Of a DNA stretch of 64,000 bases, positions 10,718-43,919 are shown in pieces. Source of the DNA: Kutzneria buriramensis (GTDB lineage Bacteria; Actinomycetota; Actinomycetes; Mycobacteriales; Pseudonocardiaceae); NCBI RefSeq assembly GCF_003387475.1, contig NZ_QUNO01000032.1, positions 1-64,000 of the forward strand, written 5' to 3'. The notes beneath the pieces are model-generated. The model saw only the letters and a list, made by a program, of their open reading frames with translations, had not been told where the DNA came from and ran no database searches. Each line of letters begins with the position of its first letter. Within the stretch, counting starts at the first letter, position 1. The translations under genes and the position numbers were made by a program.

Positions 10718-10768
10718 CCCCCGCGAGTCGCGCTCTGGGACACACCGAATGTAGGTTTCAGGCAGATC
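10718..10768 (+). repeat. Dispersed ~50-bp repeat, copy 1
   Basis: A near-consensus copy. It opens with CCCCCGCGAGTCGCGC, has the core ACACACCGAATGT, then GGTTTCAGG, and ends CAGATC. The plus orientation is defined as running from the C-rich end to GATC. The first 29 bases and the core recur at 36574, and inverted at 11013, 13521 and 43868. Confidence 0.85.
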
Positions 10769-10782
10769 CGCCCGCCCGGTCA

Positions 10783-10826
10783 ACCCCCAGCTCAGCGTCA
10801 CACCGAATGTCGGTCCCGTGCAGATC
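10783..10826 (+). repeat. Dispersed repeat, copy 2 (degenerate)
   Basis: A shortened copy. CCCCCAG is followed by TCACACCGAATGTCGGT and ends in GTGCAGATC; the CGCGAGTCGCG part is missing. It follows copy 1 in the same orientation. Confidence 0.65.
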
Positions 10827-10828
10827 AG

Positions 10829-10878
10829 ACCGGGCGAGTCGCATTCGGCAGCGGACCGAATCCGGTTTCGGGCCGATC
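10829..10878 (+). repeat. Dispersed repeat, copy 3 (degenerate)
   Basis: A diverged copy: GGGCGAGTCGCATTC, then GACCGAATCCGGTTTCGGG, ending CCGATC. Spacing of the three blocks matches copy 1, but several bases differ. Confidence 0.5.
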
Positions 10879-10937
10879 GTGGCCGCCGGCAACCGGACCA
10901 GTCGGGCAAGTCCACGGCGGCGTCCGGTCGGCTTCCG

Positions 10938-10989
10938 GATCTGCCGGAAACTGACATTCGCTGTGTCTGTGAGCGCGACTCGCCGGGGT
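10938..10989 (-). repeat. Dispersed repeat, copy 4 (inverted)
   Basis: Read on the plus strand it starts GATCTGCCGG, has GACATTCGCTGTGTCTG and ends GCGCGACTCGCCGGGGT. This is the reverse complement of the consensus with a few changes. It faces copies 1-3. Confidence 0.8.
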
Positions 10990-11012
10990 GACGGCCGGCG
11001 TGCACGCTGCCC

Positions 11013-11063
11013 ATCTGCACCAAATCGACATTCGGTGTGTCTGTGGGCGCGACTCGCGGGGGT
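11013..11063 (-). repeat. Dispersed repeat, copy 5 (inverted)
   Basis: Reads ATCTGCACC, then GACATTCGGTGTGTCTG, ending GCGCGACTCGCGGGGGT. Its outer end touches the stop codon of the RibD-like gene (TGA at 11065-11063). With copy 1 it bounds a 346-bp inverted-repeat array filling the gap between two convergent genes. Confidence 0.85.
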
Positions 11064-11590
11064 CAGCGGGTGTAGCGGAGAGTGGTGATGCCGGAGGGGT
11101 GGGAGCGGGACTGGAGGAGGGTGAGGTCGGCGCGGCGGCGGGTGAACAGGGGCTGCCCGTCGCCGATGGCGGTGGGATAGACCTTGAACCAGTACTCGTC
11201 GACCAGGTCCAGCTCCACGAACGCCTGGGCGGTGGCGACGCCGCCGAACAGCACCATGTCCCGGCCGGGCTTGGCCTTGAGCTCGGCGACGGCGGCGGTC
11301 AGGTCGGGCGTGGTCGACCGGGAGAAGACGACCTTCGGCGTGTCCAGCATCCAGTTCGCGAAGTCGACCAGCGCGGGCGGGCTGGCCGGATCGGCGGCCT
11401 CGGCGCGGAAGTTGGCCTCGAACGCGTGGTGGATCACCCGGCCCTCCAGGATCGTGTCCACCCGCGCCCGCAGCTCGCCGGTGAGCTCCTCGTTCATCGC
11501 GGGATCGGGCCTCATGAAGTCCAGCTGACCATTCGGTCCGGAGAGCTTGCCGTCGAGCGTCAGATTGACGAACAGGATCACGTCGCGCAT
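11063..11590 (-). CDS. RibD C-terminal/dihydrofolate-reductase-family protein
   Basis: 175 residues from the ATG at 11590, which follows GAAGGAGCCCGCG. The fold signature is a first strand RDVILFVNLTLDGKLSG, KVVFSRS in the middle and MVLFGGVATAQAFVELDLVDEYWFKVYPTAIGDG near the end. This matches the RibD_C superfamily of NADPH-dependent reductases, in the YyaP/YwjB-type stand-alone group. Substrate is unknown; these proteins are usually not true folate or riboflavin enzymes. The divergent neighbour is PoxB with a 109-bp shared promoter. Confidence 0.85.
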   Translation of the reverse strand: MRDVILFVNLTLDGKLSGPNGQLDFMRPDPAMNEELTGELRARVDTILEGRVIHHAFEANFRAEAADPASPPALVDFANWMLDTPKVVFSRSTTPDLTAAVAELKAKPGRDMVLFGGVATAQAFVELDLVDEYWFKVYPTAIGDGQPLFTRRRADLTLLQSRSHPSGITTLRYTR

Positions 11591-11699
11591 CGCGGGCTCC
11601 TTCGGTGTGGGGTACGAAGAGGTAGAGCCGGCGGCCCTGGCCGACTCATCGGCGCCAAGCTGTGACGCGCGCCACATCACATGAGCGGAGGGGGTTCCG

Positions 11700-13436
11700 A
11701 TGGCGCCGACCGTCGCCGATCAACTCATCGAGATCCTCCGACAAGCCGGCGTACGCCGGGTGTACGGCCTGGTGGGCGACAGCCTGAACCCCATCGCCGA
11801 CGCGATCCGGCGCACTCCGGACGTCGAGTGGGTGCACGTCCACAACGAGGAGGCGGCGGCGCTGGCCGCGGCGGCCGAGGCGCAGCTCACCGGGCGGCTG
11901 GCGGTGTGCGCCGGCAGCTGCGGCCCCGGCAACACGCACCTGATCCAGGGCCTGTACGACGCGCATCGCACCGGCGCGCCGGTGCTGGCGATCGCCTCGC
12001 ACATCCCGTCCACGCAAATCGGCACCAACTATTTCCAGGAGACGCACCCGCAGCACCTGTTCCTGGAATGCAGCGCCTACTGCGAGTTGGTGTCCCGCCC
12101 CGAGCAACTGCCCCGGTTGCAACGCATCGCCATGCAGACGGCGTTGGCCAAACAGGGGGTGGCGGTCCTGGTGCTACCGGGTGATCTGACGGCGGAGCCG
12201 GCTCCGAATCCCACCGGCCACAGCCATCTCGTCGAGACGCGAGCGGTGGCCGTGCCGGCCGAGGAATCCGTACGGGCATTGGCCGCCAAGATCAACCAAG
12301 CCCGGACGGTGGCATTGTTCGTCGGCGCCGGCGTCCGGGACGCCCGCGCCGAAGTGCTGGAACTGGCCGCCAAGGTGCACTCGCCGATCGGGCATTCGCT
12401 CGGCGGCAAGGAGTGGATCCAGTACGACAACCCGTACGACGTGGGCATGAGCGGCCTGCTCGGTTACGGCGCGTGCTACGAGGCGACGCACGAGGCCGAC
12501 CTGCTGATCATGCTCGGCACCGACTTCCCGTACGACACCTTCCTGCCGCAGGCGCACACCGTGCAGGTGGACCGCGACGCCGCCCGGCTCGGCCGGCGGA
12601 CCCGGCTGGACCTGGGTGTCGAGGGTGACGTCGGCGAGACCCTGCGCGCGGTGCTGCCGTTGATCCACCAGAAGACGGAGCGGGCGTTCCTGGACCGAAT
12701 GCTGCGCAAGCACGCCGACGCCCTGGAGAAGGTCGTCTCCGCGTACACGGCCAAGGTCGACAAGCTGCGGCCGGTGCATCCGGAGTACGTGGCGGCGGTG
12801 CTCGACGAGCTGATCGCCGACGACGCCGTGATCACGGTCGACACGGGCATGTGCAACGTGTGGGCGGCGCGGTACCTCACGCCCAACGGCCGGCGGCGGA
12901 TCATCGGCTCGTTCCGGCACGGCACCATGGCCAACGCCCTGCCGCACGCGATCGGGGCGGCGCATGCCCAGCCGGGGCGGCAGGTCGTGTCGATGTCCGG
13001 CGACGGCGGGCTGACCATGCTGCTGGGCGAACTGCGCACCGTGCGGGAGCGCCGGGTGCCCGTGAAGATCATCGCGTTCAACAACGGGTCGCTGGGCATG
13101 ATCCGGCTGGAGATGATGGTCGCCGGCTATCCGTCGTTCGAGACGGATCACGGGGTCGCCGACCTCGCCGCGATCGCCCGCGCCTGCGGCGTGCCGGCCG
13201 AGGTGGTCGACGATCCCGCCGACCTCCGGCGCGCGCTGGAGACGGCGCTGGCCGCCAACGGCCCGTTCCTGGTGGACGTCCGCACCGACCCCAACGCCCT
13301 GTCCATCCCGCCGCACATCACCGCCGCCCAGGTCCGCGGCTTCGCCCTGGCCGCCACCCGCACCGTCCTCGACGGCGGCGTCGGCAAGATGATCGACCTC
13401 GCCCGCAGCAACCTCCGCTCCATCCCCCGACCCTGA
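11700..13436 (+). CDS. poxB: Pyruvate dehydrogenase (quinone) / pyruvate oxidase-type ThDP enzyme
   Basis: 578 residues, close to E. coli PoxB (572). The N-terminal pyrimidine-binding domain has YGLVGDSLNPIADAI and the catalytic glutamate in HNEEAAALAAAAEAQL. SCGPGNTHLI and FQETHPQHLF are PoxB-like. The ThDP diphosphate site is SGDGGLTMLLGEL...IAFNN. The enzyme decarboxylates pyruvate to acetate and CO2 with FAD, passing electrons to membrane quinone. The C-terminal 25 residues (GGVGKMIDLARSNLRSIPRP) could act as the membrane-binding helix. An acetolactate synthase is less likely given these PoxB-type segments. A ribosome-binding site GGAGGGGG precedes the ATG. Confidence 0.93.
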   Translation: MAPTVADQLIEILRQAGVRRVYGLVGDSLNPIADAIRRTPDVEWVHVHNEEAAALAAAAEAQLTGRLAVCAGSCGPGNTHLIQGLYDAHRTGAPVLAIASHIPSTQIGTNYFQETHPQHLFLECSAYCELVSRPEQLPRLQRIAMQTALAKQGVAVLVLPGDLTAEPAPNPTGHSHLVETRAVAVPAEESVRALAAKINQARTVALFVGAGVRDARAEVLELAAKVHSPIGHSLGGKEWIQYDNPYDVGMSGLLGYGACYEATHEADLLIMLGTDFPYDTFLPQAHTVQVDRDAARLGRRTRLDLGVEGDVGETLRAVLPLIHQKTERAFLDRMLRKHADALEKVVSAYTAKVDKLRPVHPEYVAAVLDELIADDAVITVDTGMCNVWAARYLTPNGRRRIIGSFRHGTMANALPHAIGAAHAQPGRQVVSMSGDGGLTMLLGELRTVRERRVPVKIIAFNNGSLGMIRLEMMVAGYPSFETDHGVADLAAIARACGVPAEVVDDPADLRRALETALAANGPFLVDVRTDPNALSIPPHITAAQVRGFALAATRTVLDGGVGKMIDLARSNLRSIPRP

Positions 13437-13437
13437 A

Positions 13438-13499
13438 CCCCCGCGAGTTCGCCCAGAAATAAAGCACAGTCAGACACACCGAAATACGGTCTCAGGCAC
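13438..13499 (+). repeat. Dispersed repeat, copy 6 (with insertion)
   Basis: Starts CCCCCGCGAGTTCGC one base after the poxB stop, continues with an inserted AT-rich segment (AGAAATAAAGCACAGT), then AGACACACCGAAATACGGT and TCAGGCAC. It is an extended, diverged copy. Confidence 0.7.
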
Positions 13500-13520
13500 A
13501 AACGAGACCGGCAGGTCTCA

Positions 13521-13572
13521 GATCTGCACGAAACGCACATTCGGTGTGCCCCAGAGCGCGACTCGCGGGGGT
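13521..13572 (-). repeat. Dispersed repeat, copy 7 (inverted)
   Basis: Reads GATCTGCACGAAACGC, ACATTCGGTGTGC and AGAGCGCGACTCGCGGGGGT. It forms an inverted pair with copy 6, the C-rich ends outward and about 20 bp between them, directly after poxB. The pair could fold as a long hairpin and end transcription. Confidence 0.85.
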
Positions 13573-13757
13573 GCGACACGCCGGCAAGGCGGGGGCCGGG
13601 GCTGAACCCGCCGCTCCCCTCGACCAGCGGGTCCAGCCTCCCCAAATCCCCGGTACGTCAACTATCGGGCGGGTGGGGTCGCGGTGGCCAGGGGTGGGCC
13701 GTTGCCAACCCAGGAAACACCCCGGTCGACGCCGGTTCTCGCTCGCACAATCGGCAC

Positions 13758-14024
13758 GTGCCGCTCGTCGTGGACACCGATCCCGGCGTGGACGACGTTT
13801 TCGCGCTGGTCGGTCTCCTCGCTGGCCACGTACGAGGAACACGAGGTGGTGGTCGAGCTCCAGGGCCACCTGCGCGGGCGACGCCGGTCGACCGCCGTGA
13901 GCAGCGGCTACCGGGCACGGAGCTGCCGAAACGCCGTCCGGTGCGGGTGGCTGTGGCCGCGGACACAGCCCGGATTCCGGCCGAGTTGCTGGAGGACATC
14001 GCCGAGCTGGGGCGGTATGTGTAA
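13758..14024 (+). pseudogene. Nucleoside hydrolase remnant (internal deletion, frameshift)
   Basis: The GTG at 13758 opens MPLVVDTDPGVDDVFAL, the N-terminal calcium-binding DTDPGVDD motif of inosine-uridine nucleoside hydrolases, which are normally about 310 residues. After about 20 residues the sequence jumps. HEVVVELQGHLRG, resembling the C-terminal strand of the family, is in another frame, and PVDRREQRLPGTELPKRRPVRVAVAADTARI returns to the first frame. The middle, including the catalytic histidine region, is gone. This is a decayed gene. The stretch 13573-13757 between the repeat pair and the remnant shows no feature. Confidence 0.7.
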
Positions 14025-14048
14025 TACCCTCGGTTACGGGGGTAAGGA

Positions 14049-16292
14049 ATGCGAGAGAGCTTCGGCCACCACGTGCGGGCGCTGCGCACGCGGCGCGCGC
14101 TGTCGCTGCGCGGCCTGGCCGAGGCGGCCGGCATCACCCCCGGCTACCTGAGCAAGATCGAGAACGGCCGGCTGCCGTCGGTGGACATGGCCCGCGCGCT
14201 GGACGTCGCGCTCGGCGCGGACGGCTCGCTGCTGGCGGTGCTGACCGTCGACCAGCTCCCCCGCCCGGCGCAGCTGCCGCTGGCGATGAGCGGCTTCGTC
14301 GGCCGGGACGCCGAGATCCGGGACCTGACCGCGGCGCTGGAACGCCCGGACAGCAAGGTGCCGCTGATCATCGCCGTGGACGGCCCGCCGGGCGCCGGCA
14401 AGACGACCCTGGCGCTGCACTTCGCGCACCGGGCCATCCCCCAGTTCCCGGACGGCCAGCTGTACGCCGACCTGCGCGGCCACAGCCCGCACGACCGGCC
14501 GGCGCTGCCCGGCGAGGTGCTGGCCGACCTGCTGCGGGCGCTCGGCGTGCCGGCCGCGGGCGCCGCCGACGTGGAGCACCTGGCCGCGCTGTACCGGTCG
14601 GCGCTGGCCGAGCGCCGGATGCTGATCGTGTTGGACAACGCGGCCGACTTCGCCCAGATCGAGCCGCTGCTGCCGGGCACCGGCCGTTGCGCGGTGATCA
14701 TCACCAGCCGGGAGCGGCTGTCCGGCCTGACGCTGCGGGCCAGCCCGCACCGCCTGACGCTGGGCCCGATGTCCGCGGACGAGTCGCTGGCGCTGCTGAC
14801 GAACGTGCTCGGCAAGGAACGCGCCGACCGCGAGCCGACGGCGCTCGTCTCGCTGGCCGACCGCTGCGGCCGGCTGCCGCTGGCGCTGCGGGTCGCGGCG
14901 GAGCGGGCCGTCACCACGCCGGACTACGACCTGCGCGATCTGGTCAGCGAGCTGGATTCGGAGCGACTGGACGTGCTCGGCGTGGAGGACTCGGACGTCC
15001 GCACCGTCTTCTCCTGGTCGCTGCGACGCCTCGACCCCGACGCGGCGCGGCTGTTCCCGCTGCTGGGCCTGCACCGGGGCCCGCAGATCAGCGGCCGGGC
15101 GGCGGCCGCGATCGCCGGCATGCCGCAGTCCTTCGCCCGCCGCGCCACCGCCCGGCTCACCCACGCGCACCTGCTTCGGGCCGTCGGCCGCGACCGCTAC
15201 ACCTTCCACGACCTGATCCGCGACTACGCCGCCGAGCTCGCCCACCGCGAGGTCGCCGACACCGCCGCGGCGGTGCACCGGCTGGTCAGCTGGTACCTGC
15301 ACTCCGCCACGGCCGCCTGCCATGTGCTGGCGCCGTTCCGGTTCGACCCGATGGCCAAGGACGAGCTGCCGACCGGAGTGCATCCGCTGGCCTGGACCTC
15401 GGACGACGCCGGCGCGCTGGACGCGCTGCGCTGGTGCGACGCGGAGCTGCCCAACATCGTGCCGGTCATCCAGATGGCCATGGACCACGGCCACTACAAG
15501 CTGGCCTGGCAGCTGCCGATCACCTTGTGGTCGTACCTGTTGCAGCGGCGGCCGTGGAGCGTCTGGATCCGCAGTCATGAGCTGGCGCGGCAGGCCGCCC
15601 GCCACGTGAACGACCGCGCGGCCGAGGGCTGGGTGGTGACCAACCTGGCCGAGGGCTATCGCCGGATGGGCGACCTCACGCAGTCCAGCCGCCTGTACGA
15701 GGAAGCCCGCGCGCTGCGCGCCGAGGTCGGCGACCGCTACGGTCTGGCCTGGGCGCTGGCCGGCTCCGCGTTCCTCGCCGCCGACCTCGGCCACGACGTC
15801 GAGGCCCTCGAGCTCTCCGACGAGGCGACGCGGATCTTCGTGGAGTACAAGGACTTCCAGGGCCAGGCGCTGTGCCTGATGACGCGCGGCGACGTGCTGC
15901 GGCTGCGGGGGGACCTCGACGGCGGCCTCGCACTGTGCGGGCTGGCGCTGGGCATGATGGTGGACATCGCCTCGCTGGAGGGGCAGGCCCAACTGCTGCG
16001 CAAGATGGTCGAGATCCACGTGGAGCGCAAGGACTTCCCGTCGGCGCTGACGCTGCTGACGATGGCCGTGACCACCGCCCGCGAGCTGCGCGACCGGTGG
16101 GCACAGGCGGAGGCGCTGACCCGCCGCGGCGAGGTGCTGGTGGAATTGGACCGCCGCGATGAGGGCCGACTGGCCTGGCAGGACGCGTTGGCGCTCTACG
16201 ACGAGCTCGACGACACCGCCGGCAGCCGCGGCGTCAGGGAGCGGCTGGCAGCTGCGCTTCCCGCCACCGCAGCACGTCCCGGCACACCGTGA
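14049..16292 (+). CDS. XRE-NB-ARC-TPR regulatory ATPase
   Basis: 747 residues. An N-terminal XRE helix-turn-helix (about 8-55, SLRGLAEAAGITPGYLSKIENGRLPS) is followed by an NB-ARC STAND ATPase. Walker A is GPPGAGKTT (112-120), Walker B is LIVLDNA (192-198), an ITSRERLSGL sensor and the GRLPLALRVAAERA segment follow. A winged region (VRTVFSWSLRRLDPDAARLFPLL) precedes about 300 residues of helical TPR repeats. STAND proteins oligomerise on signal binding. This layout resembles AfsR without the SARP domain. No target is evident. The 3' end overlaps the opposite gene by 59 bp. Confidence 0.88.
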   Translation: MRESFGHHVRALRTRRALSLRGLAEAAGITPGYLSKIENGRLPSVDMARALDVALGADGSLLAVLTVDQLPRPAQLPLAMSGFVGRDAEIRDLTAALERPDSKVPLIIAVDGPPGAGKTTLALHFAHRAIPQFPDGQLYADLRGHSPHDRPALPGEVLADLLRALGVPAAGAADVEHLAALYRSALAERRMLIVLDNAADFAQIEPLLPGTGRCAVIITSRERLSGLTLRASPHRLTLGPMSADESLALLTNVLGKERADREPTALVSLADRCGRLPLALRVAAERAVTTPDYDLRDLVSELDSERLDVLGVEDSDVRTVFSWSLRRLDPDAARLFPLLGLHRGPQISGRAAAAIAGMPQSFARRATARLTHAHLLRAVGRDRYTFHDLIRDYAAELAHREVADTAAAVHRLVSWYLHSATAACHVLAPFRFDPMAKDELPTGVHPLAWTSDDAGALDALRWCDAELPNIVPVIQMAMDHGHYKLAWQLPITLWSYLLQRRPWSVWIRSHELARQAARHVNDRAAEGWVVTNLAEGYRRMGDLTQSSRLYEEARALRAEVGDRYGLAWALAGSAFLAADLGHDVEALELSDEATRIFVEYKDFQGQALCLMTRGDVLRLRGDLDGGLALCGLALGMMVDIASLEGQAQLLRKMVEIHVERKDFPSALTLLTMAVTTARELRDRWAQAEALTRRGEVLVELDRRDEGRLAWQDALALYDELDDTAGSRGVRERLAAALPATAARPGTP

Positions 16293-17130
16293 TCAGCCTC
16301 TGCCGCAACGGTTTCGCCCGCTCGGCGAAGTCCGCCTGCTGCCGCGCGTACTCGGCACGACCGGCCGGCGTCTCGATCCGCACCGGCTCGTAGCCCAGCG
16401 CCGACAGGTCGTACGGGCTGGCCCGCATGTCCAGCTCGCGGATCCGGGACGCCAGCTCGAAGCAGTCGGCGACGAGCTCCGACGGCACGTACGGCTCCAG
16501 CTTGTACGCCACCTTGTACAGGTCCATGTTGCCGTGCAGGCAGCCCGGCTGCTCCAGCTCGACCTGCGATTCCCGGGTGGGCTGCAAGGCGTTGCGCGGG
16601 CGGGCCGGCGGCGTGAAGAACCGGAACGCGTCGAAGTGTCCACATCGGACCTGCGACGACTCCACCAGCGCGTCGGTTCCGTTGTGCCCCAACCGGAGCG
16701 GCCAACCGAAGTGCCGGACCTGCTCCGGCGTCTGCCGGTACACCATGGCCCACTCGTGCAGGCCGAAGCAGTTCAGCCGCGGCGGCCGGGACACGGTGGC
16801 GGCCAGCAGCCCCAGGTAGAACTCGGCCGTGCGCACGCGGGGTTCGGTGCAGGCGGCCGGATCGAGCGTCACACCGTCATCCGTACGGTGATAACCCCGG
16901 TAGTCGAGGAACTCGTCGGCGCCTTCCAGCACCACGCCGAGCCCCGGGTGCCACCGCTCCAACCGGCCCGGCCGGTGCGAGTAGTACGTGAACAGGAAGT
17001 CGTGCACCGGGTGCTTTTCCTTGGCCAGCGACCGTTCCTTGTGCGGCAGCGTCCAGCGCCGGACCCGGTCGACGTGCGCGCGCTGCCGGGCCCGCCACTC
17101 GGGTTCGGTCAGCACCGTCGTCGCGTCCAC
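16234..17130 (-). CDS. Conserved actinobacterial protein (3-methyladenine DNA glycosylase-like by name only)
   Basis: 298 residues, soluble, rich in conserved blocks: HPVHDFLFTYYSHRPGRLER, WHPGLGVVL, CFGLHEWAMVYR, VRCGHFDAFRFFTPPARP, EQPGCLHGNMDLYKVAYKL and ELDMRASPYDLSALGY. From memory, close relatives in many actinobacteria are annotated as 3-methyladenine DNA glycosylase. I see no helix-hairpin-helix or other known glycosylase motif that would justify that name. The many conserved His, Cys and Tyr residues suggest an enzyme or metal site. Function should be taken as unknown. Confidence 0.75.
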   Translation of the reverse strand: MDATTVLTEPEWRARQRAHVDRVRRWTLPHKERSLAKEKHPVHDFLFTYYSHRPGRLERWHPGLGVVLEGADEFLDYRGYHRTDDGVTLDPAACTEPRVRTAEFYLGLLAATVSRPPRLNCFGLHEWAMVYRQTPEQVRHFGWPLRLGHNGTDALVESSQVRCGHFDAFRFFTPPARPRNALQPTRESQVELEQPGCLHGNMDLYKVAYKLEPYVPSELVADCFELASRIRELDMRASPYDLSALGYEPVRIETPAGRAEYARQQADFAERAKPLRQRLITVCRDVLRWREAQLPAAP

Positions 17131-17150
17131 CCGACAACGGTAACCGGAGC

Positions 17151-18590: not shown

Positions 18591-18649
18591 GCGTGTCTCC
18601 TCGTTCACTCGCCCGGGATCACCGTAGCGGGGGGACGGGTCGGGAAGGA

Positions 18650-19801: not shown

Positions 19802-19911
19802 GGCACCTCCCGGGCGTGAGCGTACCGGCACCGTTCGTGCTGGTCCGATCGCCAAATCTATGATTGTGTGAACAAACTCGCCGCCGCTGCGTGATCGAAA
19901 GGGGGCTCCGA

Positions 19912-21248: not shown

Positions 21249-21252
<4 letters not shown>
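19912..21252 (+). CDS. Sugar ABC transporter substrate-binding lipoprotein (Tat type)
   Basis: 446 residues. The GTG start at 19912 follows GGGGG with six bases of spacing. The leader GRRRLLGLGLGALGAAALAGC is a twin-arginine-like signal ending in a lipobox with the acylated cysteine at 24. The mature part is a family 1 extracellular solute-binding fold (LTYWAWLKDLQKVCDIWNAR, ALAAGGGPDLAQVEL, AIPQDTGPMGWYYQPAVLEKVG). It binds a sugar outside the membrane and delivers it to the two permeases encoded next with 4-bp overlaps. A GH2 beta-galactosidase at the end of the operon points to a galactoside ligand. Confidence 0.92.
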
Positions 21253-25848
<4,596 letters not shown>

Positions 25849-30585: not shown

Positions 30586-30586
30586 G

Positions 30587-31108: not shown

Positions 31109-31584
31109 GACTGCACCTGGACGGGTGCGAGGGCGCTGACCTGCCAGTCGTTGCCGGTGCGGGTCAGGTCGGCCTGGAACCGCGTGCGCTTGGACGTCGC
31201 CTGACCTTGGGACGGCGTGACGTTGAGCTGCACCGCGGCGATCAGCTTGGCGGTGCCGGCCCGCTGGTCCAGCGCCGTCACGGCGGTGTCCATGACCTGC
31301 GCGGTGGTGACGGTTTTGGCCTGTTCCAACTGTTTCCGGCTGTCCGTGCCGGTCTGCGCAAGCTGGTCGTGCAGCGTGCCGGTGGACACCTTGAGCCACG
31401 CCTGGAGACCGTCGTCGACCTTGCGGTAGTCGAGGGTGTTCAGCGTGGCGATGTCGTGCTGCGCGGCCTGCGTGACGGCCTGCCGGTCCAGCGCGAACTG
31501 CCGCGCGTCGTCGTGGGCGGCGCTCCACCAGGACCACCCGCCCCACGCGGCGAACACCGCCGCCAGGATCACCACGATCTTCAT
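31105..31584 (-). CDS. Mce-associated membrane protein (first)
   Basis: 159 residues with an N-terminal anchor (KIVVILAAVFAAWGGWSWWSAAHDD) and a periplasmic-side domain (DIATLNTLDYRKVDDGLQAWLKVSTGTLHDQL) matching Mce-associated proteins. It follows mceF after 8 bp and overlaps the next paralogue, so the pair is a duplication within the operon. It should act in the cell envelope with the Mce ring. Confidence 0.87.
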   Translation of the reverse strand: MKIVVILAAVFAAWGGWSWWSAAHDDARQFALDRQAVTQAAQHDIATLNTLDYRKVDDGLQAWLKVSTGTLHDQLAQTGTDSRKQLEQAKTVTTAQVMDTAVTALDQRAGTAKLIAAVQLNVTPSQGQATSKRTRFQADLTRTGNDWQVSALAPVQVQS

Positions 31585-31592
31585 GTCGGCTC

Positions 31593-36568: not shown

Positions 36569-36573
36569 AGCCA

Positions 36574-36623
36574 CCCCCGCGAGTCGCGCTCTGGGACACA
36601 CCGAATGTAGGTTTCAGGCAGAC
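36574..36623 (+). repeat. Dispersed repeat, copy 8 (inside mce operon)
   Basis: A near-perfect copy: CCCCCGCGAGTCGCGCTC, GGGACACACCGAATGT, AGGTTTCAGGCAGAC. It is almost identical to copy 1 at 10718. Its C-rich end abuts the mceB start, so on the coding strand it reads GCGGGGGT, the apparent ribosome-binding site. Confidence 0.9.
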
Positions 36624-36626
36624 CGA

Positions 36627-36677
36627 ACCCTCGCGAGTCCCGCTTAGCGTCACGCCGAAAACCGCACTCCGGCACAC
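36627..36677 (+). repeat. Dispersed repeat, copy 9 (degenerate)
   Basis: ACCCTCGCGAGTCCCGCTTA, GCGTCACGCCGAAAACCG and CTCCGGCACAC keep the block order of the consensus with several changes. It fills the rest of the mceA-mceB gap and ends at the mceA stop codon. Confidence 0.6.
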
Positions 36678-37823
36678 TCATCCGACCGTCACCTCCGCCC
36701 CTCGGTACAGCGGCCCCACCAGCACACTTCCCCAGCTGGGCATGTCCCTCCCCGTCAGCGCGCCGATGAAGGTGTTCTCCTGCGCCGAATTCGGCGCGGC
36801 CGTCACGGGATAACACGTCGGGCCGCCGTGGTCGTCGTAGACGGGAGCGTCCTGGCCGGGGAGGTACTTTCCCTTCGCCGGCTGGACATTCACCGTCACG
36901 TGCATGCCGGGCTGACCGGTCCCCCTGCCCAGCACCTTGTCCATCTCCGGCTCGAACGCGGTGAGCGCACGCAGCATGCACGGATACTCGGGCGAGTACC
37001 GCGCCAGCAGGTTGAGCGTGGGCACGCTGGCCTGCGACAGGCGAATGATGTTGGCCCCGTTGCGTTCGAGGAAGGTCGCCAGGTCCTGCGAACCGGTGGT
37101 GAGGTTCTGGAACAGGCCGGCGAGGTTGGCCCGCTGGTCGGCGATGGTGCGGCTGGTGGTCGTCAGATCCGACAGCGCCTGCACGACGTCCGGCGCGATC
37201 TTGCTGTAGTTGTCGGTGACCTGGGCGAGCTCCCGCAGACCGGCGGTGAACTCGTCCAGGTGCGGGGTGAACCGGTCCACGTCGCTGCCGAGCCAGGTCA
37301 GGGTCTGACCTAGCGCCGCGCCGCGGCCGGCCAGGCCACCGGCCAGGGTGCTGAGGATGGACGACAGCTTCTGCGGCTGCACCGCCTGCAAGGTGGGCAT
37401 GAGATCGCCGACGACCTGCTCGACCTCGACGGCTGACGCCGAACGGTCCTGCTGGATCACGTCGCCGGCGGCCAAGCGGCTCGAGGATTTTCCCGGTGAC
37501 GCAACGAGATCCACGTAGCGTTCGCCGAACAGCGTCTTCGGCAGCAGGCGGGCGGTCACGGCGGCCGGGACCCGGGCGATCATGTCCGGGCGCATCGCCA
37601 ACGAAACCTCGGCGCCGGATCCGTCCGTGCGGACGTCACGAACCGCGCCGACCACCACGCCGCGCAGTTTCACCTCGGCGTCGAGATGCAGCTGGTTGCC
37701 GACGTGATCGGTTCGCAGCGTCACCATCGCGGTCGGCGTGAAGTCCTTGCGGTACACGGCAACCGCCAGCACGACGACCAGCGCCATGATCAGCAGGTAG
37801 ACCGCGCCGAGGAGCCGCTTCAT
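36678..37823 (-). CDS. mceA: MCE family protein, MceA position
   Basis: 381 residues. The anchor is LLGAVYLLIMALVVVLAVAVY, and the MCE domain (about 40-115) carries NQLHLDAEVKLRGVVVGAVRDVR. Long helical segments follow, then a C-terminal domain with QENTFIGALTGRDMPSWGSVLVGPLYRGAEVTVG. The ATG overlaps the yrbEB stop by 4 bp. MceA starts the block of substrate-binding subunits in all mce operons; here the order A-F is canonical. Confidence 0.93.
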   Translation of the reverse strand: MKRLLGAVYLLIMALVVVLAVAVYRKDFTPTAMVTLRTDHVGNQLHLDAEVKLRGVVVGAVRDVRTDGSGAEVSLAMRPDMIARVPAAVTARLLPKTLFGERYVDLVASPGKSSSRLAAGDVIQQDRSASAVEVEQVVGDLMPTLQAVQPQKLSSILSTLAGGLAGRGAALGQTLTWLGSDVDRFTPHLDEFTAGLRELAQVTDNYSKIAPDVVQALSDLTTTSRTIADQRANLAGLFQNLTTGSQDLATFLERNGANIIRLSQASVPTLNLLARYSPEYPCMLRALTAFEPEMDKVLGRGTGQPGMHVTVNVQPAKGKYLPGQDAPVYDDHGGPTCYPVTAAPNSAQENTFIGALTGRDMPSWGSVLVGPLYRGAEVTVG

Positions 37824-38605
37824 CCCGCGACCTTCACGGTGGTCGTCGCGCCCCAGATGGCCAGGCTCAGGAAGAAGTCCAGCATGCTCACCGCGACGAT
37901 GGTCGTCCGCACGGCCCGACCGACGGCGACGCCGACCCCCGCGGGGCCGCCGGTCGCGCGGTAGCCGAAGTAGCAGTGCACCAGCATCACGACCACGCTG
38001 AACATCAGGACCTTGCCGAACGAGAACAGCACATCGTCGGGCGGCAGGAACAGGGCGAAATAATGGTCGTAGGTGCCGGCCGACTGGCCGTAGAAGACAA
38101 CCGTGATCTCCCGTGACGCCAGGTACGAACACAGCAACCCGATGGCGTACAAGGGAACCACGGCGACGAAGCCGGCGACGACCCTGGTGCTCACCAGGTA
38201 CGGCAGGCTGCGCACGGCGATCACCTCCAGCGCGTCGACCTCCTCGGCGATGCGCATCGCCCCCAGCTGCGCGGTGAAACCGGAACCGACCGTCGCCGAC
38301 AACGCCAGCCCGGCCACCAGCGGCGCGATCTCGCGGGTGTTGAAGTACGCCGACATGAACCCCGAGAACGCCGCCACGCCGATCTGGTTCAGCGCCGAAT
38401 ACCCTTGCAGGCCGACGACGACGCCGGTGAACACGGTCATGCCGACCATCACGCCGACGGTGCCGCCGATCACCGCCAGCGCCCCGGACCCGAAGCCGAC
38501 CTCGGCCAGCAGCCGGACGACCTCCTTGAAGTACCGGCGCACCGCGAACGGCACCGCCGCCAGCGCGCGCAGGAAGAACAGCAGCTGATCGCCGAGCGCC
38601 TCCAT
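37820..38605 (-). CDS. yrbEB: MlaE/YrbE-family permease, YrbEB position
   Basis: 261 residues, five or six helices. EVVRLLAEVGFGSGALAVIGGTVGVMVGMTVFTG and AMRIAEEVDALEVIAVRSLPYLVSTR are the MlaE permease signatures, the second being the coupling helix to the ATPase. It forms the inner-membrane channel with YrbEA. The start was placed at ATG 38605 (TGATG overlap); GTG 38608 is equally possible. Confidence 0.93.
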   Translation of the reverse strand: MEALGDQLLFFLRALAAVPFAVRRYFKEVVRLLAEVGFGSGALAVIGGTVGVMVGMTVFTGVVVGLQGYSALNQIGVAAFSGFMSAYFNTREIAPLVAGLALSATVGSGFTAQLGAMRIAEEVDALEVIAVRSLPYLVSTRVVAGFVAVVPLYAIGLLCSYLASREITVVFYGQSAGTYDHYFALFLPPDDVLFSFGKVLMFSVVVMLVHCYFGYRATGGPAGVGVAVGRAVRTTIVAVSMLDFFLSLAIWGATTTVKVAG

Positions 38606-39354
38606 CACATCCCCTTCGGCGGCACGATCCGCAGGTACACCGCGGTGATCACGGCATTCACCAGGAACAGCAACAGGAACGTGATGACCACGGACTGGTT
38701 CACCGCGTCGCCGACGCCCTTCGGACCGCCCCGGGGATGCAGCCCGCGGTAGGACGCGACGACGCCGGCGAGGAAGCCGAAGATCATCGCCTTGAGCTCG
38801 CTGACCCACAGGTCCGGCAGCTGGGCCAGCGCGGCGAAGCTCGCCACGTACGCGCCGGGCGTGCCGCCCTGCATGATCACGTTGAAGAAATAGCCGCCGG
38901 CGACGCCGACCACGCTCACCATGCCGTTGAGCAGCACCGCAACCGACGTCGCCGCCAGCACGCGCGGCACGACCAGCCGGTGCACGGGCGAGACGCCGAG
39001 CACCTCCATCGCGTCGATCTCCTCGCGGATCGTGCGCGACCCCAGGTCCGCGCAGATGGCCGAGCCGCCCGCGCCGGCGATGATCAGCGTGGTGACGATC
39101 GGGCTGGCCTGCTGGATGATCGCCAGCACGGACGCCGCGCCGTCGAAGGACTCCGCCCCGATCTGGGCCGTCAGCGAACCCAGCTCCAGCCCGATCACCG
39201 CGCCGAACGGGATCGACACCAGCATCGACGGCAGGATGGAGACGCTGGCCACGAACCAGAACTGCCCGAGCAGTTCCCGGTACTGGAAGGGGCGACGCAG
39301 GAGTTGGCGCAGAACCTCCAGGCCCAGCGCGAACATCTGGCCGACGGCGGTCAC
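38605..39354 (-). CDS. yrbEA: MlaE/YrbE-family permease, YrbEA position
   Basis: 249 residues. SILPSMLVSIPFGAVIGLELGSL and SRTIREEIDAMEVLGVSPVHRLVVPR define an MlaE permease; the EEIDAMEVLG helix docks to the ATP-binding subunit. The GTG start overlaps the ATPase gene stop (GTGA). Together with YrbEB it completes the ABC core of the importer. Confidence 0.93.
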   Translation of the reverse strand: MTAVGQMFALGLEVLRQLLRRPFQYRELLGQFWFVASVSILPSMLVSIPFGAVIGLELGSLTAQIGAESFDGAASVLAIIQQASPIVTTLIIAGAGGSAICADLGSRTIREEIDAMEVLGVSPVHRLVVPRVLAATSVAVLLNGMVSVVGVAGGYFFNVIMQGGTPGAYVASFAALAQLPDLWVSELKAMIFGFLAGVVASYRGLHPRGGPKGVGDAVNQSVVITFLLLFLVNAVITAVYLRIVPPKGM

Positions 39355-40295
39355 CGCGGCACGCCCCAGTTCGCCAGCACGTGCTCGCGGGCCGCCGGCG
39401 ACAGCGTCGGCAGCATCACCCGTACGCGCTCCTGCCGGCGCTGGATCGCCTGTCGTGCCGGCAATCCCGGGCTGGGCGTCAGCTGCGGCACGATCTCCGG
39501 CACCGTGCTCGGCCACGTGCCCTCGGCGGCATCGGTCTCCTCGCTCATGCCGATCGGGCCGTGCCGGTGGCCGCCGAGGAACTGGGCGACGACCGGTTCC
39601 TCGCTGGTCAGCAGGATCTCGCGGGGCCCGAAGCCGACCAGCCGCCGCCGGTAGAGCATGCCCAGGTTGTCCGGCACGGTCCGGGCCACGCTGATGTTGT
39701 GCGTGACGATCAGGATCGTCACGTCGACCTGGGCATTCAGGTCCACCAGGAGCTGGCTGAGGTAGGCGGTGCGGACCGGGTCGAGCCCGGAGTCGGGTTC
39801 GTCGCACAGGATGATCTCCGGGTCCAGCACCAGCGCCCGGGCCAGGCCGGCGCGCTTGCGCATGCCGCCGGAGAGCTCGCCGGGCAGCTTGCGCTCCGCG
39901 CCGACCAGGCCCACCAGCTCCATCTTGTCGTTGACGAGCCGCCGGATCTCGGCCTCGGTCTTGCGGGTGTGCTCCCGCAGCGGGAACGCGATGTTGTCGT
40001 ACACGGTCATCGAGCCGAACAGCGCGCCGTCCTGGAACAGCACCCCGAACAGCTTGCGCAGCTCGTAGCGCTCGGACTCGGTGCAGCGGCACAGGTCCAC
40101 GCCGTTGACCATGATCCGGCCGCGCTCCGGCCGCAGCAGGCCGACGAGGCACTTGAGGAACACGGACTTCCCGGTGCCGGATGGTCCCAGTAGGACACTG
40201 AGCTCGCCGGCCGGAACCGTCAGCGACACGTCCTGCCAGATGTTCTGACGGCCGAAGGACTTCGCCAGACCGTGCACCTCGATCTGCACGCCCAT
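39351..40295 (-). CDS. MlaF/Mkl-like ABC ATPase of the mce system
   Basis: 314 residues. Walker A is LLGPSGTGKS, the signature is LSGGMRKRAG, Walker B is IILCDEPDSGLDP and the H loop is IVTHN. In M. tuberculosis the Mce ATPase (Mkl) is encoded apart from the operons; here it is inside, directly upstream of yrbEA. The final about 60 residues (AAEGTWPSTVPEIVPQLTPS...) form an extension seen in Mce-type ATPases. ATG overlaps the preceding secreted-protein stop by one base, tying that protein to the transporter. Confidence 0.93.
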   Translation of the reverse strand: MGVQIEVHGLAKSFGRQNIWQDVSLTVPAGELSVLLGPSGTGKSVFLKCLVGLLRPERGRIMVNGVDLCRCTESERYELRKLFGVLFQDGALFGSMTVYDNIAFPLREHTRKTEAEIRRLVNDKMELVGLVGAERKLPGELSGGMRKRAGLARALVLDPEIILCDEPDSGLDPVRTAYLSQLLVDLNAQVDVTILIVTHNISVARTVPDNLGMLYRRRLVGFGPREILLTSEEPVVAQFLGGHRHGPIGMSEETDAAEGTWPSTVPEIVPQLTPSPGLPARQAIQRRQERVRVMLPTLSPAAREHVLANWGVPR

Positions 40296-40957
40296 CAATG
40301 CTCCTCGCAGGTGGTGGCGCCGCCGCAGAGGAACGTCAGCACGGTGCGCAACGTGTTGCCGGGCCCGGAGACCAGGCCGGTCATGAGCGGGTCGAGGTTC
40401 TCGGTGGCGCCGGAGTGGTGGAACGGCGGGATGGTGAACGTGCCGGAGATCGTGCCGGTGGACAGCGGGCTCGCGAACGGCCCGGTCTGCACGATCGCCG
40501 TCTCGTCGCTGCGGCAGTTCGCCCCGAGGTTCAGCGGCACGCCGTGCACCCTCGCGTTGGTCAGGGCGAAGACCAGGCGCGTGGTGGCGGTGAGAGTTCC
40601 GTTCTGCAGCACCGAATCCACCTGCGCGGTGGACGTGACGGTGACGGTCGTGGTGGCCGGCATGAAGCCGAAGGTGACGAAGTAGCTGTCGGCCGGCGGC
40701 AACGCGAGCGTACCGGTGATGTCGACCCGGAGGGTGCCGGGCGTGATCACGAACTGGCCGTCGAGGCGACCCGGACCGATGATGAGGTCCGAGCCGAGCT
40801 TGGCCACATGGGTCGTGGTGTCCACGCGATAGTGCACCGGCGTCGGCGGATTGTCGTCCGCCGGCCGAGTTGTAGTCGTCGGGGCGGCGCTCGCCGACGT
40901 GCCGAGGCCGATCGCGCAGCCGACCAGGACGGCGACCGCCAACCACCGCTGTGCCAT
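40295..40957 (-). CDS. Secreted beta-rich protein at the head of the mce operon
   Basis: 220 residues. A Sec signal peptide (AQRWLAVAVLVGCAIGLGTSASA) is followed by a short Thr/Pro segment and a beta-rich domain (about 40-220) with DSYFVTFGFMPATTTVTV, NLGANCRSD and LVSGPGNTLRTVLTFLCG. The same pattern, including NC and SGPGNT, ends the secreted protein at 42563-43801. It is probably cell-surface. Its stop overlaps the ATPase start, so it is the first gene of the mce transcript. A role in lipid capture is a guess. I know no named family for it. Confidence 0.75.
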   Translation of the reverse strand: MAQRWLAVAVLVGCAIGLGTSASAAPTTTTRPADDNPPTPVHYRVDTTTHVAKLGSDLIIGPGRLDGQFVITPGTLRVDITGTLALPPADSYFVTFGFMPATTTVTVTSTAQVDSVLQNGTLTATTRLVFALTNARVHGVPLNLGANCRSDETAIVQTGPFASPLSTGTISGTFTIPPFHHSGATENLDPLMTGLVSGPGNTLRTVLTFLCGGATTCEEH

Positions 40958-41076
40958 GCCGGCGGACGCTACTCACGAGTATCCTTGCCCACAAGGAAAT
41001 CCCCCGCCGACCACGGAAATTGTCAAGGCCGCGCAATTTCCGCGCCACGGACCTTGCGCAGGGTCGACAAACGCCG

Positions 41077-41556
41077 TCAGCAGTCCACGGCCTTGGCGAA
41101 CGCCCGGTCCAGGTCCTTGTTCTGACGGAGCGTGGCCTTCGGGTCGCCGGCGTCGTCCAGCCCGGCCATGCCGGTGTTGACGTCGGCGACGGCCTGCTGG
41201 AGCCCGCCGTCGTCGCCGGGCTTGACCGCCGCGAGCCTGGACCTGGCCTGCTGCAACGACTTCTGTGCGGCGTCGATGGTGCCCAGGGCCTTGTCGACGA
41301 CCGCCTGACCGCCCGGCACCGGCGGCGGCCCGGCCGCGCGTATGCCGGCCGCCTCCTTGCCCAGGGCGGTCGACACCGTGTCGAGGAACGCGACCAGGTC
41401 CGCCGACGTCTGCTGCGGCGCGGCGGCGATCCTCGGCGTGGCGTCGCAAACCCTGGCTGCCCAGGCGATCGCCGGGGCGTCCGGGTCGGGTGCCGGTGGC
41501 GGCGCGGCGCAGGCAGCGATCAACATCAGGCTCAACAGCGGCGCGAGGCGAATCAT
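41077..41556 (-). CDS. Small lipoprotein, unknown function
   Basis: 159 residues from ATG 41556. The leader IRLAPLLSLMLIAACAAPPP has a lipobox with the cysteine at 16. The mature protein is helical (SADLVAFLDTVSTALGKEAAGI, AQKSLQQARSRLAAVKPG), with two further cysteines (VCDATPR and the final AVDC) that could pair. It would be attached to the outer face of the membrane. It precedes the mce operon by 119 bp on the same strand and may belong to it. The family is not recognised. Confidence 0.7.
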   Translation of the reverse strand: MIRLAPLLSLMLIAACAAPPPAPDPDAPAIAWAARVCDATPRIAAAPQQTSADLVAFLDTVSTALGKEAAGIRAAGPPPVPGGQAVVDKALGTIDAAQKSLQQARSRLAAVKPGDDGGLQQAVADVNTGMAGLDDAGDPKATLRQNKDLDRAFAKAVDC

Positions 41557-41641
41557 GCCGGCAGCGTCGACCACCCGCCGGCACGCGACAAGGCGGCCGA
41601 CGGAATTTGTCACGCGCGCACAGCGCGCCCCGCGAGAACCG

Positions 41642-42388
41642 TTACGAGAAGTGCGTTTTCGGCCGTTCCACCTCGACGCCGTCCAGGAAGATGTCCACCT
41701 TCTCGTTGTAGAACGCGATCAGCCCGGCGATGGGCAGCAGCTGCCGGGTCGGGAAGTCGTAGCACCAGGCCAGGTCGGCGTGCACGGTGTCGCCGGTGCT
41801 CACCGACCAGTAGCCGGTGGTCCTTCCCTTGTACGGGCAGGCGGTCTCCGTGTCGGACGGCACCAGGTGCTCGAAGTTCACCTCGGTGCGGTTGAGGTAG
41901 TAGCGGGTCGGCAGGCCCGTCTCGAACACCAGCACCGGCGACGAGGATTCGGCCAGCACCACACCGTCCAGTTCCACCCGAACGGTGCGGGTCGAGCGCA
42001 GCGCGTCCACCCGCGCGTACGGATTGCGCGGATGGACGAAGATCTCCTCGTCCTCCTCGAACCAGGAATCCAAGGCGTCCCAGTCGAATTTGACGAGTCC
42101 GTCCTCGAACACCCTTACCGTGCCGGGCTTGCTCACCTCGCCCACCCGCAGGCCGTGCCGGCGGGCCTTGCCGTGGCGCAGGTTCTGCACGTGCTCCTCG
42201 TCGACCAGGACCTCGGGATCGACGTCGGCCAGCGGGATGTAGTACTGCGGATAGAACGGCCATTCCCAGACGTAGCGGGCGTTCGTGGTGTCGAAGACGG
42301 TCCGGCCGCCCAGCACCGCCCGCACCCGGCGCGGCGCCGGCTCGCTGTGGCCGGCCTGCACCGGCGCCTCGGGGTAGTCGCGCGTCAC
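41642..42388 (-). CDS. DUF427 domain protein (two tandem domains)
   Basis: 248 residues. Two DUF427 beta-barrel repeats are visible: RAVLGGRTVFDTTNARYVWEW at about 23-43 and VRVELDGVVLAESSSPVLVFETGLPTRYYL at about 133-162. YKGRTTGYWSV and ADLAWCYDFP are characteristic. The family is widespread in actinobacteria and fungi; its function is unknown. Conserved Trp, Tyr and Cys residues hint at a small-molecule pocket. It is soluble, with no signal peptide. Confidence 0.85.
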   Translation of the reverse strand: MTRDYPEAPVQAGHSEPAPRRVRAVLGGRTVFDTTNARYVWEWPFYPQYYIPLADVDPEVLVDEEHVQNLRHGKARRHGLRVGEVSKPGTVRVFEDGLVKFDWDALDSWFEEDEEIFVHPRNPYARVDALRSTRTVRVELDGVVLAESSSPVLVFETGLPTRYYLNRTEVNFEHLVPSDTETACPYKGRTTGYWSVSTGDTVHADLAWCYDFPTRQLLPIAGLIAFYNEKVDIFLDGVEVERPKTHFS

Positions 42389-42562
42389 ACCGTCGACCCT
42401 AGGTTCTTGTCACGGCATGAGCAATTCCCATGGGGGTGAATCTGTCAGCTGCCCGCAACTTTCCCACCCGTTCTTGCCGGCGGTAAGCGCCCTCATTAGC
42501 TTCGGGTCACGCTCCGGTAAACGCGGTTCTCCTTGCTGTTGACACAGGAAAGTAGGACGACT

Positions 42563-43801
42563 GTGAATCATCGAACATTGGGGGCGGCCACGCTGGCCGC
42601 GCTGGTGCTGACGGGCCTTGCCGTCGGCGCCGGCGTGTCCACGGCCGCGTCCACTCCCGTGGACAAGACGCTGACGTTCACCTGCCCCTTCCCGCTGATC
42701 GGCAACCAGACGCTGGCGGTTCGGATCCAGGCCACGATGTCCACTCCGGACACCGTCGGCGGCGATCTCGTGACGACCAACTTCTCCGCCACCGCAACGG
42801 TTCCGCCCACCGCCACGCAGGGGTTGGCGTTGGTCGGGGCCACCACGATCGAGGGCACGGCGCAGGCCGGCGTCTCCTTGAACGAGGCCGGCACGCCGCT
42901 GGACATCACCATTCCCGGCCTGACGATCCCGTCGACACCCGTGCCGGCCTCGGGTTCGTTCGACACCGTGGCATCCGGTCCGGTGCCGACGGCGACGATC
43001 ACCAAGGCGGGCACCACAACCGTGTCGGTCGGCGGGTTCTCGACCACGTTGACGCCGAAGAAGGCCGACGGCACGCCGACCGGGCTGGGCACCTTCACGT
43101 CCGACTGCACCCTCAACAGCGGCCAGGACGCGCAGCTGATCAGCTTCACGGTGGCCGACGCGCCGCCGCCGACCACCACGACCACGACGCCGCCCCCGAC
43201 GACGACAACGACGACCACTCCCCCGCCGACCACGACCACTACCACCAAGGCCCCGCCGCCGACGACCACCACGACGTCGGCCCCCGGCACCATCACCTAC
43301 AGCTACGACATCAAGGGCAGCTCGGAGATCAAGAGCCTGCACGGCACCGTGCCCATCACCGGCGGTATCACCGCCAAGCTCGACCTGGGCACCGCCAAGT
43401 ACACCGCCGACCTCGCCCTGGACCCGACCAGCGCGCGGTTCACGCTGTTCGGTTTCCTGCCGATCACCACGAGGATCGCCTTCCAGCCGGTCGGACAGAC
43501 CACCGGCTCGGTCAGCGGCGGCGCGCTCGACGCCACGTCCAAGCTGACCATCAAGATGCCGCGGATCAGCCTGTTCGGGCTGCCGATCAGCCAGTCCCCG
43601 AACTGCGGCACCAGCCGGCCGTCCATGGTGAAGATGACCTCCGGCCCCGGCTTCGACGTGCTCAAGGGCGGCGCGCTGTCCGGCGGCTACGCGATCGCGC
43701 CGCTCACCGGCTGCGGCCCGTTCACCCCGTTCATCAGCGCCCTGGCCAGCGGCCCCGGCAACACCATCGACCTCACCCTCACGGGCAAGCCCACCCACTG
43801 A
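42563..43801 (+). CDS. Secreted two-domain beta protein (DUF6801-like + SGPGNT domain)
   Basis: 412 residues. A signal peptide (about 1-28) is followed by domain 1 (about 30-197, KTLTFTCPFPLIGNQTLAVR), which looks like DUF6801 from memory. A Pro/Thr linker (about 200-245) follows, then domain 2 (about 250-412, FTLFGFLPITTRIAF, QSPNCGTS, ALASGPGNTIDLTL). Domain 1 is nearly identical to the sortase-anchored protein on the opposite strand. Domain 2 matches the secreted protein heading the mce operon. It therefore links both families. No membrane anchor, so it is released or held by partners. GTG 42563 follows AGGACGACT. Confidence 0.8.
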   Translation: MNHRTLGAATLAALVLTGLAVGAGVSTAASTPVDKTLTFTCPFPLIGNQTLAVRIQATMSTPDTVGGDLVTTNFSATATVPPTATQGLALVGATTIEGTAQAGVSLNEAGTPLDITIPGLTIPSTPVPASGSFDTVASGPVPTATITKAGTTTVSVGGFSTTLTPKKADGTPTGLGTFTSDCTLNSGQDAQLISFTVADAPPPTTTTTTPPPTTTTTTTPPPTTTTTTKAPPPTTTTTSAPGTITYSYDIKGSSEIKSLHGTVPITGGITAKLDLGTAKYTADLALDPTSARFTLFGFLPITTRIAFQPVGQTTGSVSGGALDATSKLTIKMPRISLFGLPISQSPNCGTSRPSMVKMTSGPGFDVLKGGALSGGYAIAPLTGCGPFTPFISALASGPGNTIDLTLTGKPTH

Positions 43802-43808
43802 AGTTCTT

Positions 43809-43862
43809 GCTGGGAAGGGCCCCAACCTGGCGTTGAACGTCCAGGTTGGGGCCCTTCCCAGC
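43809..43862. terminator. Very strong bidirectional terminator (22-bp stem)
   Basis: GCTGGGAAGGGCCCCAACCTGG and its exact reverse complement flank a 10-base loop, 7 bp after the plus-strand stop. It lies between two convergent genes. Its outer GCWGGGAAGG stem start recurs in the terminator at 59289. Confidence 0.93.
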
Positions 43863-43867
43863 ATCAG

Positions 43868-43919
43868 AATCTGCCTGAAACCTACATTCGGTGTGTCTGA
43901 GAGCGCGACTCGCGGGGGT
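43868..43919 (-). repeat. Dispersed repeat, copy 10 (inverted, overlaps a gene end)
   Basis: Reads AATCTGCCTGAAACC, TACATTCGGTGTGTCTG and AGAGCGCGACTCGCGGGGGT. It sits directly after the terminator and covers the last 12 codons and stop (43882-43884) of the sortase-substrate gene, encoding its HPRESRSQTHRM tail. Confidence 0.9.

Follow-up and report, generated by a model that had tools for sequence, protein, structure and literature searches.

A family of ~49-bp repeats, often placed at stop codons and lettered by species, in the genus Kutzneria

The DNA analysed here (the window) is a stretch of 64,000 nucleotides from contig 32 of the Kutzneria buriramensis genome (~12 Mb; hereafter the source genome), in which an earlier note, made from the letters alone, had pointed to a dispersed repeat of ~50 bp in ten copies. 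We find that this repeat belongs to a family whose units, here called arms, measure ~49 bp, number in the hundreds in the source genome, often abut stop codons, and differ in lettering from species to species at orthologous places. The reading that we favour, at a probability of about 0.5, is that the arms are mobile short repeats, similar to repetitive extragenic palindromic (REP) sequences and bacterial interspersed mosaic elements (BIMEs) but without a known transposase, which insert at stops and are replaced in place by newer copies. Taken separately, mobility of the family is highly probable and insertion of arms at stops is likely, while the route of replacement, via entry on the stop side and loss of a direct repeat, is put forward tentatively. 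The most telling features lay beyond the view of the earlier note: the 0-1 nt fit to the stop, dialects that differ by species where the places are orthologous, and dimers of two fixed sizes.

Column counts over 48 strict copies from the source genome (chosen for a strict core; 4 lie inside the window), from which the arm profile was also built, give the unit as (A)ACCCCCGCGAGTC-G-CGCTC-NNNNR-CACACCGAATGT-NGGTTTCAGGCAGA. The same counts show no T run among the conserved arm ends and no GTAG or CGTC tag at either end, GTAG being internal and in some copies only. Arms are found singly, head to tail (7 of 11 neighbouring pairs are spaced 48-50 bp), or as inverted dimers, of which 22 fall into two sizes, 96-98 bp (n = 7) and 117-124 bp (n = 15). 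The strict pattern (spacer 4-14) matches the source genome 66 times, 33 per strand, always with identical spacer length; allowing up to 3 mismatches raises the count to 217 arms (107 and 110 by strand; 100 of them listed), with none in the reversed control, so that the repeat extends far past the loci first noted. Contigs C6, C7, C13, C17 and C19 together with positions 1-750299 of C1 (2.85 Mb) hold none of the 66 strict copies, where ~16 would be expected if these were evenly spread; a degraded arm nevertheless occurs on C13 (L121; L-numbers label sequence regions).

Among 390 genomes of the host's family, in 46 genera, the repeat at up to 1 mismatch is present in the genus Kutzneria only, in 5 of 7 genomes; named records carrying it are Kutzneria sp. 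744 and Kutzneria sp. CA-103260. A looser palindrome pattern, CGAGTCNCGCT-N20..50-AGCGNGACTCG, was also searched in the relatives compared within the genus (G221-G226), with 58 places on each strand for G224, 11 for G223, 7 for G226, 2 for G222 and 1 for G221; it gives none in the source genome because the dimers there exceed the allowed gap. Outside the genus a single genome, from another genus, has it at one place (thus 2 of 46 genera), and the reversed control likewise matched once, in a single genome. On contig C1 of Kutzneria sp. CA-103260 (G224) there is a dimer family of its own, CGAGTCCCGCTCTCGGGCAACTGAATGTCGAGTT... (L128, L131, L134), a third dialect whose inner half differs. Carriage by phages or plasmids was considered and set aside: no phage record matches, and the single plasmid match (E 0.8, 36% of the query) was taken as chance. 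Rfam models at their gathering scores had no match in L046, L047 or L061.

That the arms move is suggested by empty orthologous sites. At L059:18770 the source genome has a 47-bp arm flanked by CTA on both sides, and in G221, G223 and G224 there is no arm, the stops of the two convergent genes touching or overlapping. The mce/MlaD site at window position 36574 is occupied in G222 and G223, as in the source genome, and empty in G221, G224 and G226; the repeated TGA at this site may be read either as a target duplication or as the result of selection, because the stop and the next start are both kept. Together with the hundreds of copies, the coexistence of fresh and degraded ones, and the inverted dimers, the empty sites support the suggestion of REP-like spreading, or spreading like that of a miniature inverted-repeat transposable element (MITE), made when the repeat was first noted. 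In the strict MITE-type form of this idea the dimer would be the transposing unit, moved by the DDE transposase of an insertion sequence elsewhere, and single arms would be the remains of dimers. The dimers do have inverted-repeat ends, which single arms do not, and come in two sizes, and the CTA flanks at L059:18770 suit such a movement; however, intact-ended single arms are common, one of them fills an otherwise empty site, and no consistent short target duplication was seen around dimers by eye. We consider this origin quite unlikely.

Arms favour gene ends of a particular kind. Genes were called with a codon-usage script written for the analysis, and most regions with arms had been picked for holding arms, not for the orientation of their junctions. 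The 56 distinct junctions with arms of at least 20 bits comprise 32 convergent, 24 tandem and 0 divergent ones, compared with 135, 432 and 119, respectively, among all junctions in the same sequences (p = 3e-13). At finer scale, the C-rich end of the arm, CCCCCGCGAG, lies 0-1 nt after a same-strand stop in 30 of 93 arms, and no stop is present within 40 nt in 29. At tandem junctions, 13 of the 20 arms that face the upstream stop sit 0-1 nt after it, where even placement expects 0.35. Stop adjacency as a by-product of tight convergent junctions proved an insufficient explanation, as tandem junctions with long gaps show the adjacency too.

The abutting stops are TAA in 11/30 cases, compared with 35/679 in other genes (p = 6e-7), and TAG in 0/30, compared with 115/679 (p = 0.009). 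The four relatives, in a partly dependent test, have 24 of 61 arms at -1 to 2 nt from a stop, and these arm-adjacent stops are TAA in 9/24 versus 43/583 (p = 6e-5) and TAG in 1/24 (p = 0.10). The element therefore seems to supply the last base of the stop, and the simplest reading seems to be that the A's at its end complete the codon, as T+AACCCC or TG+AACCCC. Inspection of relatives' stops by eye gave two examples: at L047:9018 the stop of the right gene is TAA in the source genome and TAG in G223 and G224, and at L059:18770 it is TAA in the source genome and TAG in G221, G223 and G224, all of which are empty there. We propose that a trans-acting activity would insert new arms at or into stop codons, between T and AACCCC or between TG and AACCCC; the end of the element would then complete the stop, and the protein would therefore be spared.

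The evidence for replacement comes from lettering at shared loci. Loci in the source genome were chosen via a G-type pattern and those of the relatives were fetched by their flanks; the letter counts quoted here are from the 18 loci compared by orthology only, since loci fetched with a lettered pattern are biased. The orthology table leaves out seven locus-species cells (window 13437 in G224; window 43866 in G221, G223 and G224; L064:16586 in G221 and G223; L059:18770 in G226), and the single G226 arm (1/7) was doubtful and was excluded from use. The base after CGAGTC is G in 29/31 arms of the source genome, A in 7/8 arms of G223 and 11/16 of G222, and C in 9/11 of G224 and 8/8 of G221; the small dyad CGCGA-G-TCGCG reported earlier is not kept by the relatives, where one of its bases is A or C. 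At L046:9075 all five species compared have one arm after the same TAA, 53-55 bp long and with the same edges and orientation, and the lettering in each case is that of the species. A reading of L046, where two TTATCCACA motifs stand beside an arm, as an origin of replication was never shown and was dropped after the gene context had been examined.

Over 76 arms, identity between species is 0.755 at the same locus (124 pairs) and 0.756 at different loci (2019 pairs), and identity within species at different loci is 0.829 (681 pairs); a permutation of loci gives p = 0.54, the flanks averaging 86% (34 cells). The pattern persists when the diagnostic base is masked (0.776, 0.776 and 0.834, in the same order) and when the arms of the source genome are left out (0.757, 0.742 and 0.803), and among the relatives only, the difference of 0.052 within minus between species was reached in 0 of 2000 permutations. 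For the lettering of an arm, species counts much and locus, overall, little. Such likeness by species at shared loci means either that the copies evolve in concert or that the same places receive insertions repeatedly.

The second of these options, in its extreme form, is that stops at certain junctions are hot spots, hit repeatedly in each lineage after loss, and that standing copies are never replaced. It would account for the empty, occupied and differently occupied states seen among relatives, and for an occupancy at source-genome arm loci of at least 33 of the 66 cells assessed in G221-G224 (a lower bound, because the arm finder overlooked arms visible by eye, e.g. in G224 at L046:10097). 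Against it stands L046:9075, with arms of the same length, edges and orientation in 5/5 species, when arms occur at only 2 of 206 source-genome junctions in regions not chosen for the repeat. These 12 control regions (240 kb, 4 arms) came mainly from contigs poor in strict copies, and their 4 arms per 240 kb are for that reason probably an underestimate. We hold this pure hot-spot account to be very unlikely.

Replacement of standing copies, as favoured here, could leave intermediates, and the head-to-tail pairs are candidates. The arm nearer the stop scores higher in 10 of 11 such pairs, and of the 7 pairs in which an older lettering can be told (GTCACACC or TAGCGTCAC, still present in G221), 6 have, by our own reading, the newer arm nearer to the stop. 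New arms may thus also enter at the stop-side edge of an old arm, between it and the stop; if one of the direct repeats so formed were then lost, a new arm would remain where the old one stood, and over time the sites would adopt the current dialect.

Several points weigh against this account. The genome-wide search for an enzyme, which covered the RAYT domain PF01797 only, found none in the source genome. What looks like replacement in place could also arise if favoured sites were hit by insertion again and again. Likeness by locus is not absent from every pair of species: G222 and G223 share an identity of 0.883 at common loci (6 pairs) versus 0.806 elsewhere, and G221 and G224 one of 0.75 versus 0.705. 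The head-to-tail array in L054 and a truncated fragment in L048 carry the older lettering on the stop side. As to insertion, the target duplication is based on one clean site, where selection for both stops could be the explanation; the stop test in the relatives is not fully independent, because some loci are shared between species or with the source genome; and single arms at tandem junctions point towards the upstream stop in 9 cases and away from it in 3, which is not significant (p = 0.15).

Folding separates the single arms from the dimers. Compared with shuffled sequences, three single arms fold no better (z 1.5, 1.3 and -0.0), and for two dimers the fold is strong (z -15.7 and -18.3). 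Within a dimer the arms are nevertheless not exact mates: bubble identity between them is 73, and shuffled pairs reach 89.9 on average (p = 0.002); the mismatched bubble is therefore maintained in dimers. Mutual correction of a dimer's two arms, which was considered, is not seen, the bubble being less matched than in the shuffled pairs.

A functional alternative follows from the strong fold of the two dimers, namely that the repeats are 3'-end elements in which a hairpin ends transcription both ways at convergent genes, kept by selection and homogenised within a species by ectopic gene conversion. The preponderance of convergent junctions and the lack of divergent ones agree with this, as does the presence of an unrelated hairpin where the element is absent (L047:9018 in G223 and G226; L064:9013 in G223). 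It fits poorly with the single arms, of which the three tested have no fold and one lies between mce genes, and with the dimer arms, which are not homogenised. Moreover, in regions not chosen for the repeat, many convergent junctions lack a hairpin and leave almost no gap, and a hairpin is thus not generally required. As a full explanation we judge it unlikely. A narrower version is compatible with mobility: the intergenic dimers probably also act as two-way structures at mRNA 3' ends, and single arms, of which the three tested do not fold, probably do not and look like passengers. A terminator-type structure, one of the options first suggested, is plausible for dimers but not for the three single arms folded, and one single arm lies between same-strand mce genes.

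The cognate RAYT/TnpA-REP transposase that had been suggested was not found: PF01797 has 0 matches in the source genome, and among seven genomes of the genus one has a single partial match, over 33 profile positions. A more ambitious extension, which we regard as doubtful, is a homing system for 49-bp units at stops that rewrites standing copies to the current version, with an enzyme outside the RAYT family and one dialect per species, by which hundreds of dispersed non-coding sites would evolve in concert. The dialects also recall a recognition sequence for a protein, such as an uptake or chromosome-organising signal with species dialects, and the available part of one source describes species dialects for Neisserial uptake sequences, often as inverted pairs at terminators (PMC3630211). 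The arms, however, are ~49 bp long, number hundreds per 12 Mb and stand at gene ends, and their small dyad is not retained in the dialects of relatives; such a role is highly improbable.

Within the window, the blocks of the earlier note are where it had placed them, and they become distinctive in combination: CCCGCGAGTCGCGC alone, at up to 3 mismatches, matches 33 times against 74 expected, and ACACCGAATGT alone, at up to 2 mismatches, 16 times against 10.7 expected, neither being above chance. The combined profile recovers 9 of the 10 noted copies, with 8 scoring at least 15 bits, and 50 dinucleotide-shuffled windows give no match that reaches 15 bits and 5 of at least 9 bits (maximum 13.9). 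The tenth, a degraded arm at 10830-10878 (plus strand), is seen by eye only and missed by both profiles. The unit size of ~50 bp is refined to ~49 bp, and six copies are arms of the current dialect: 10718-10766 (plus; bubble type TGGG; 65.1 bits), 10940-10988 (minus; 47.7 bits), 11014-11062 (minus; 50.9 bits), whose C-rich end touches the stop of the gene with a RibD_C domain at 11063-11590 (minus) at distance 0, 13523-13571 (minus; 57.3 bits), 36574-36622 (plus; 63.2 bits), a single arm between two minus-strand MlaD/Mce genes, and 43870-43918 (minus; 66.0 bits).

The remaining copies are of other kinds. A degraded arm in older lettering at 10776-10824 (plus; 21.8 bits) follows the first arm head to tail. 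The copy at 36628-36676 (plus), head to tail after that at 36574, is an arm of an older dialect, with C where the dialect of the source genome has G; it scores 11.6 bits with the source-genome profile, within the range of the shuffles, and 24.6 bits with an all-dialect profile that has no shuffle control. At 13438-13500 (plus; 15.7 bits) a long-spacer variant stands 1 nt after the stop of a thiamine pyrophosphate (TPP)-enzyme gene (TGA, 13434-13436), and forms a degraded dimer with the arm at 13523-13571; it is too weak to belong to the set of 93 arms. This variant, CCCCCGCGAGTTCGCCCAGAAAT-A-AGCACAG..., is 14 bases longer than the usual arm and occurs also at L025:883. That all copies lie at gene ends or in gaps holds, with the nuance that a called gene at 43882-44802 (minus) runs into the arm at 43870-43918. 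This gene and its convergent neighbour at 42578-43801 (plus) both encode DUF6801, a domain of unknown function, and stand tail to tail; the region to their right differs in G222 and other relatives.

Other palindromes occupy gene ends in these genomes. A second dispersed hairpin family, GGGAAGGACGCCTT...CGTT(C/G)A(A)CG...AAGGCGTCCTTCCC and relatives, is present at gene ends in 11 distinct copies in 749 kb of source-genome sequence (window 43812-43859 and 59286-59341; L016, L049, L050, L051, L052, L053, L055, L062 and L063), and is found instead of the 49-bp element at L047:9018 and L064:9013 in G223. Further unrelated long palindromes are found at the same junctions in relatives, at L047:17526 in G221 (L100) and at L054:12727 in G222 (L106), and these gene ends therefore seem to be general sites of palindrome turnover.

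If the favoured reading is right, the genus offers a natural experiment, with the same stops in several dialects, empty sites, and old-new head-to-tail pairs as possible intermediates, and it would show a way for a repeat to multiply among densely packed genes and leave their proteins intact, the stop at the landing site being supplied by the repeat. For dispersed short repeats to change in concert at shared sites, some mechanism of copying is needed; in bacterial REPs this role usually falls to a RAYT, and the search with PF01797 detected no RAYT in the source genome. A literature search, most subscription papers being outside its reach, found no description of the family; the accessible text of the Kutzneria albida genome paper does not mention such a repeat (PMC4210621), and the three Actinomycetota listed in the accessible text of the RepRanger paper include no Kutzneria (PMC12306157). 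The family is real, widespread and new within a known kind of repeat, and dialect change at standing stop-codon sites was not found described.

Among known elements, ERIC and other MITE-like palindromes are imperfect, measure ~100-130 bp and lie in intergenic DNA that is transcribed. Measured against that general description of ERIC, the half-palindrome here is a unit of its own, which also occurs in head-to-tail series. The uptake motif of Neisseriaceae is, unlike the arms, much shorter, far denser and also found inside genes. The likeness to that DNA uptake sequence, as far as the accessible portion of the source describes it, lies in the species dialects of a dispersed repeat and in inverted pairs at gene ends (PMC3630211). 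MIRU, a short mobile actinobacterial repeat, is described in the consulted section of one paper as entering overlapping stop and start codons with little harm to expression (PMC12548453), and in this respect the mce site at window position 36574 resembles its insertions. Most arms here, however, follow the stops of convergent genes or precede long gaps, and differ from MIRU in sequence and length. The target of MIRU is DTGA, and its insertion at a stop/start overlap goes with a coupled small ORF.

The closest likeness is to REP, BIME and REPIN elements. According to the part of the literature accessible, REPs are short intergenic repeats present in hundreds of copies, forming inverted dimers, mostly between convergent or same-direction genes and near 3' ends; with GTAG REPs a TAG stop is often provided by the element; and the units fold, carry tags and are tied to RAYTs or, in the CGTC type, to no known enzyme (PMC3733652). 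Orthologous RAYT genes, on the partial text available, can be flanked by different REP classes (PMC3686654). The Kutzneria repeats share with the REPs thus described their number, shortness, intergenic position, inverted dimers, convergent or tandem placement and, apparently, stop-supplying ends. They differ in that the single unit has 49 bp and, in the three tested, no fold, whereas a REP unit is a self-complementary sequence of 20-40 bp; in that the arms lack a GTAG or CGTC end tag and their genome the Y1 transposase domain (PF01797); in that the stops next to the arms are TAA or TGA rather than TAG; and in that dialect change is measured here at many shared sites that are not RAYT loci.

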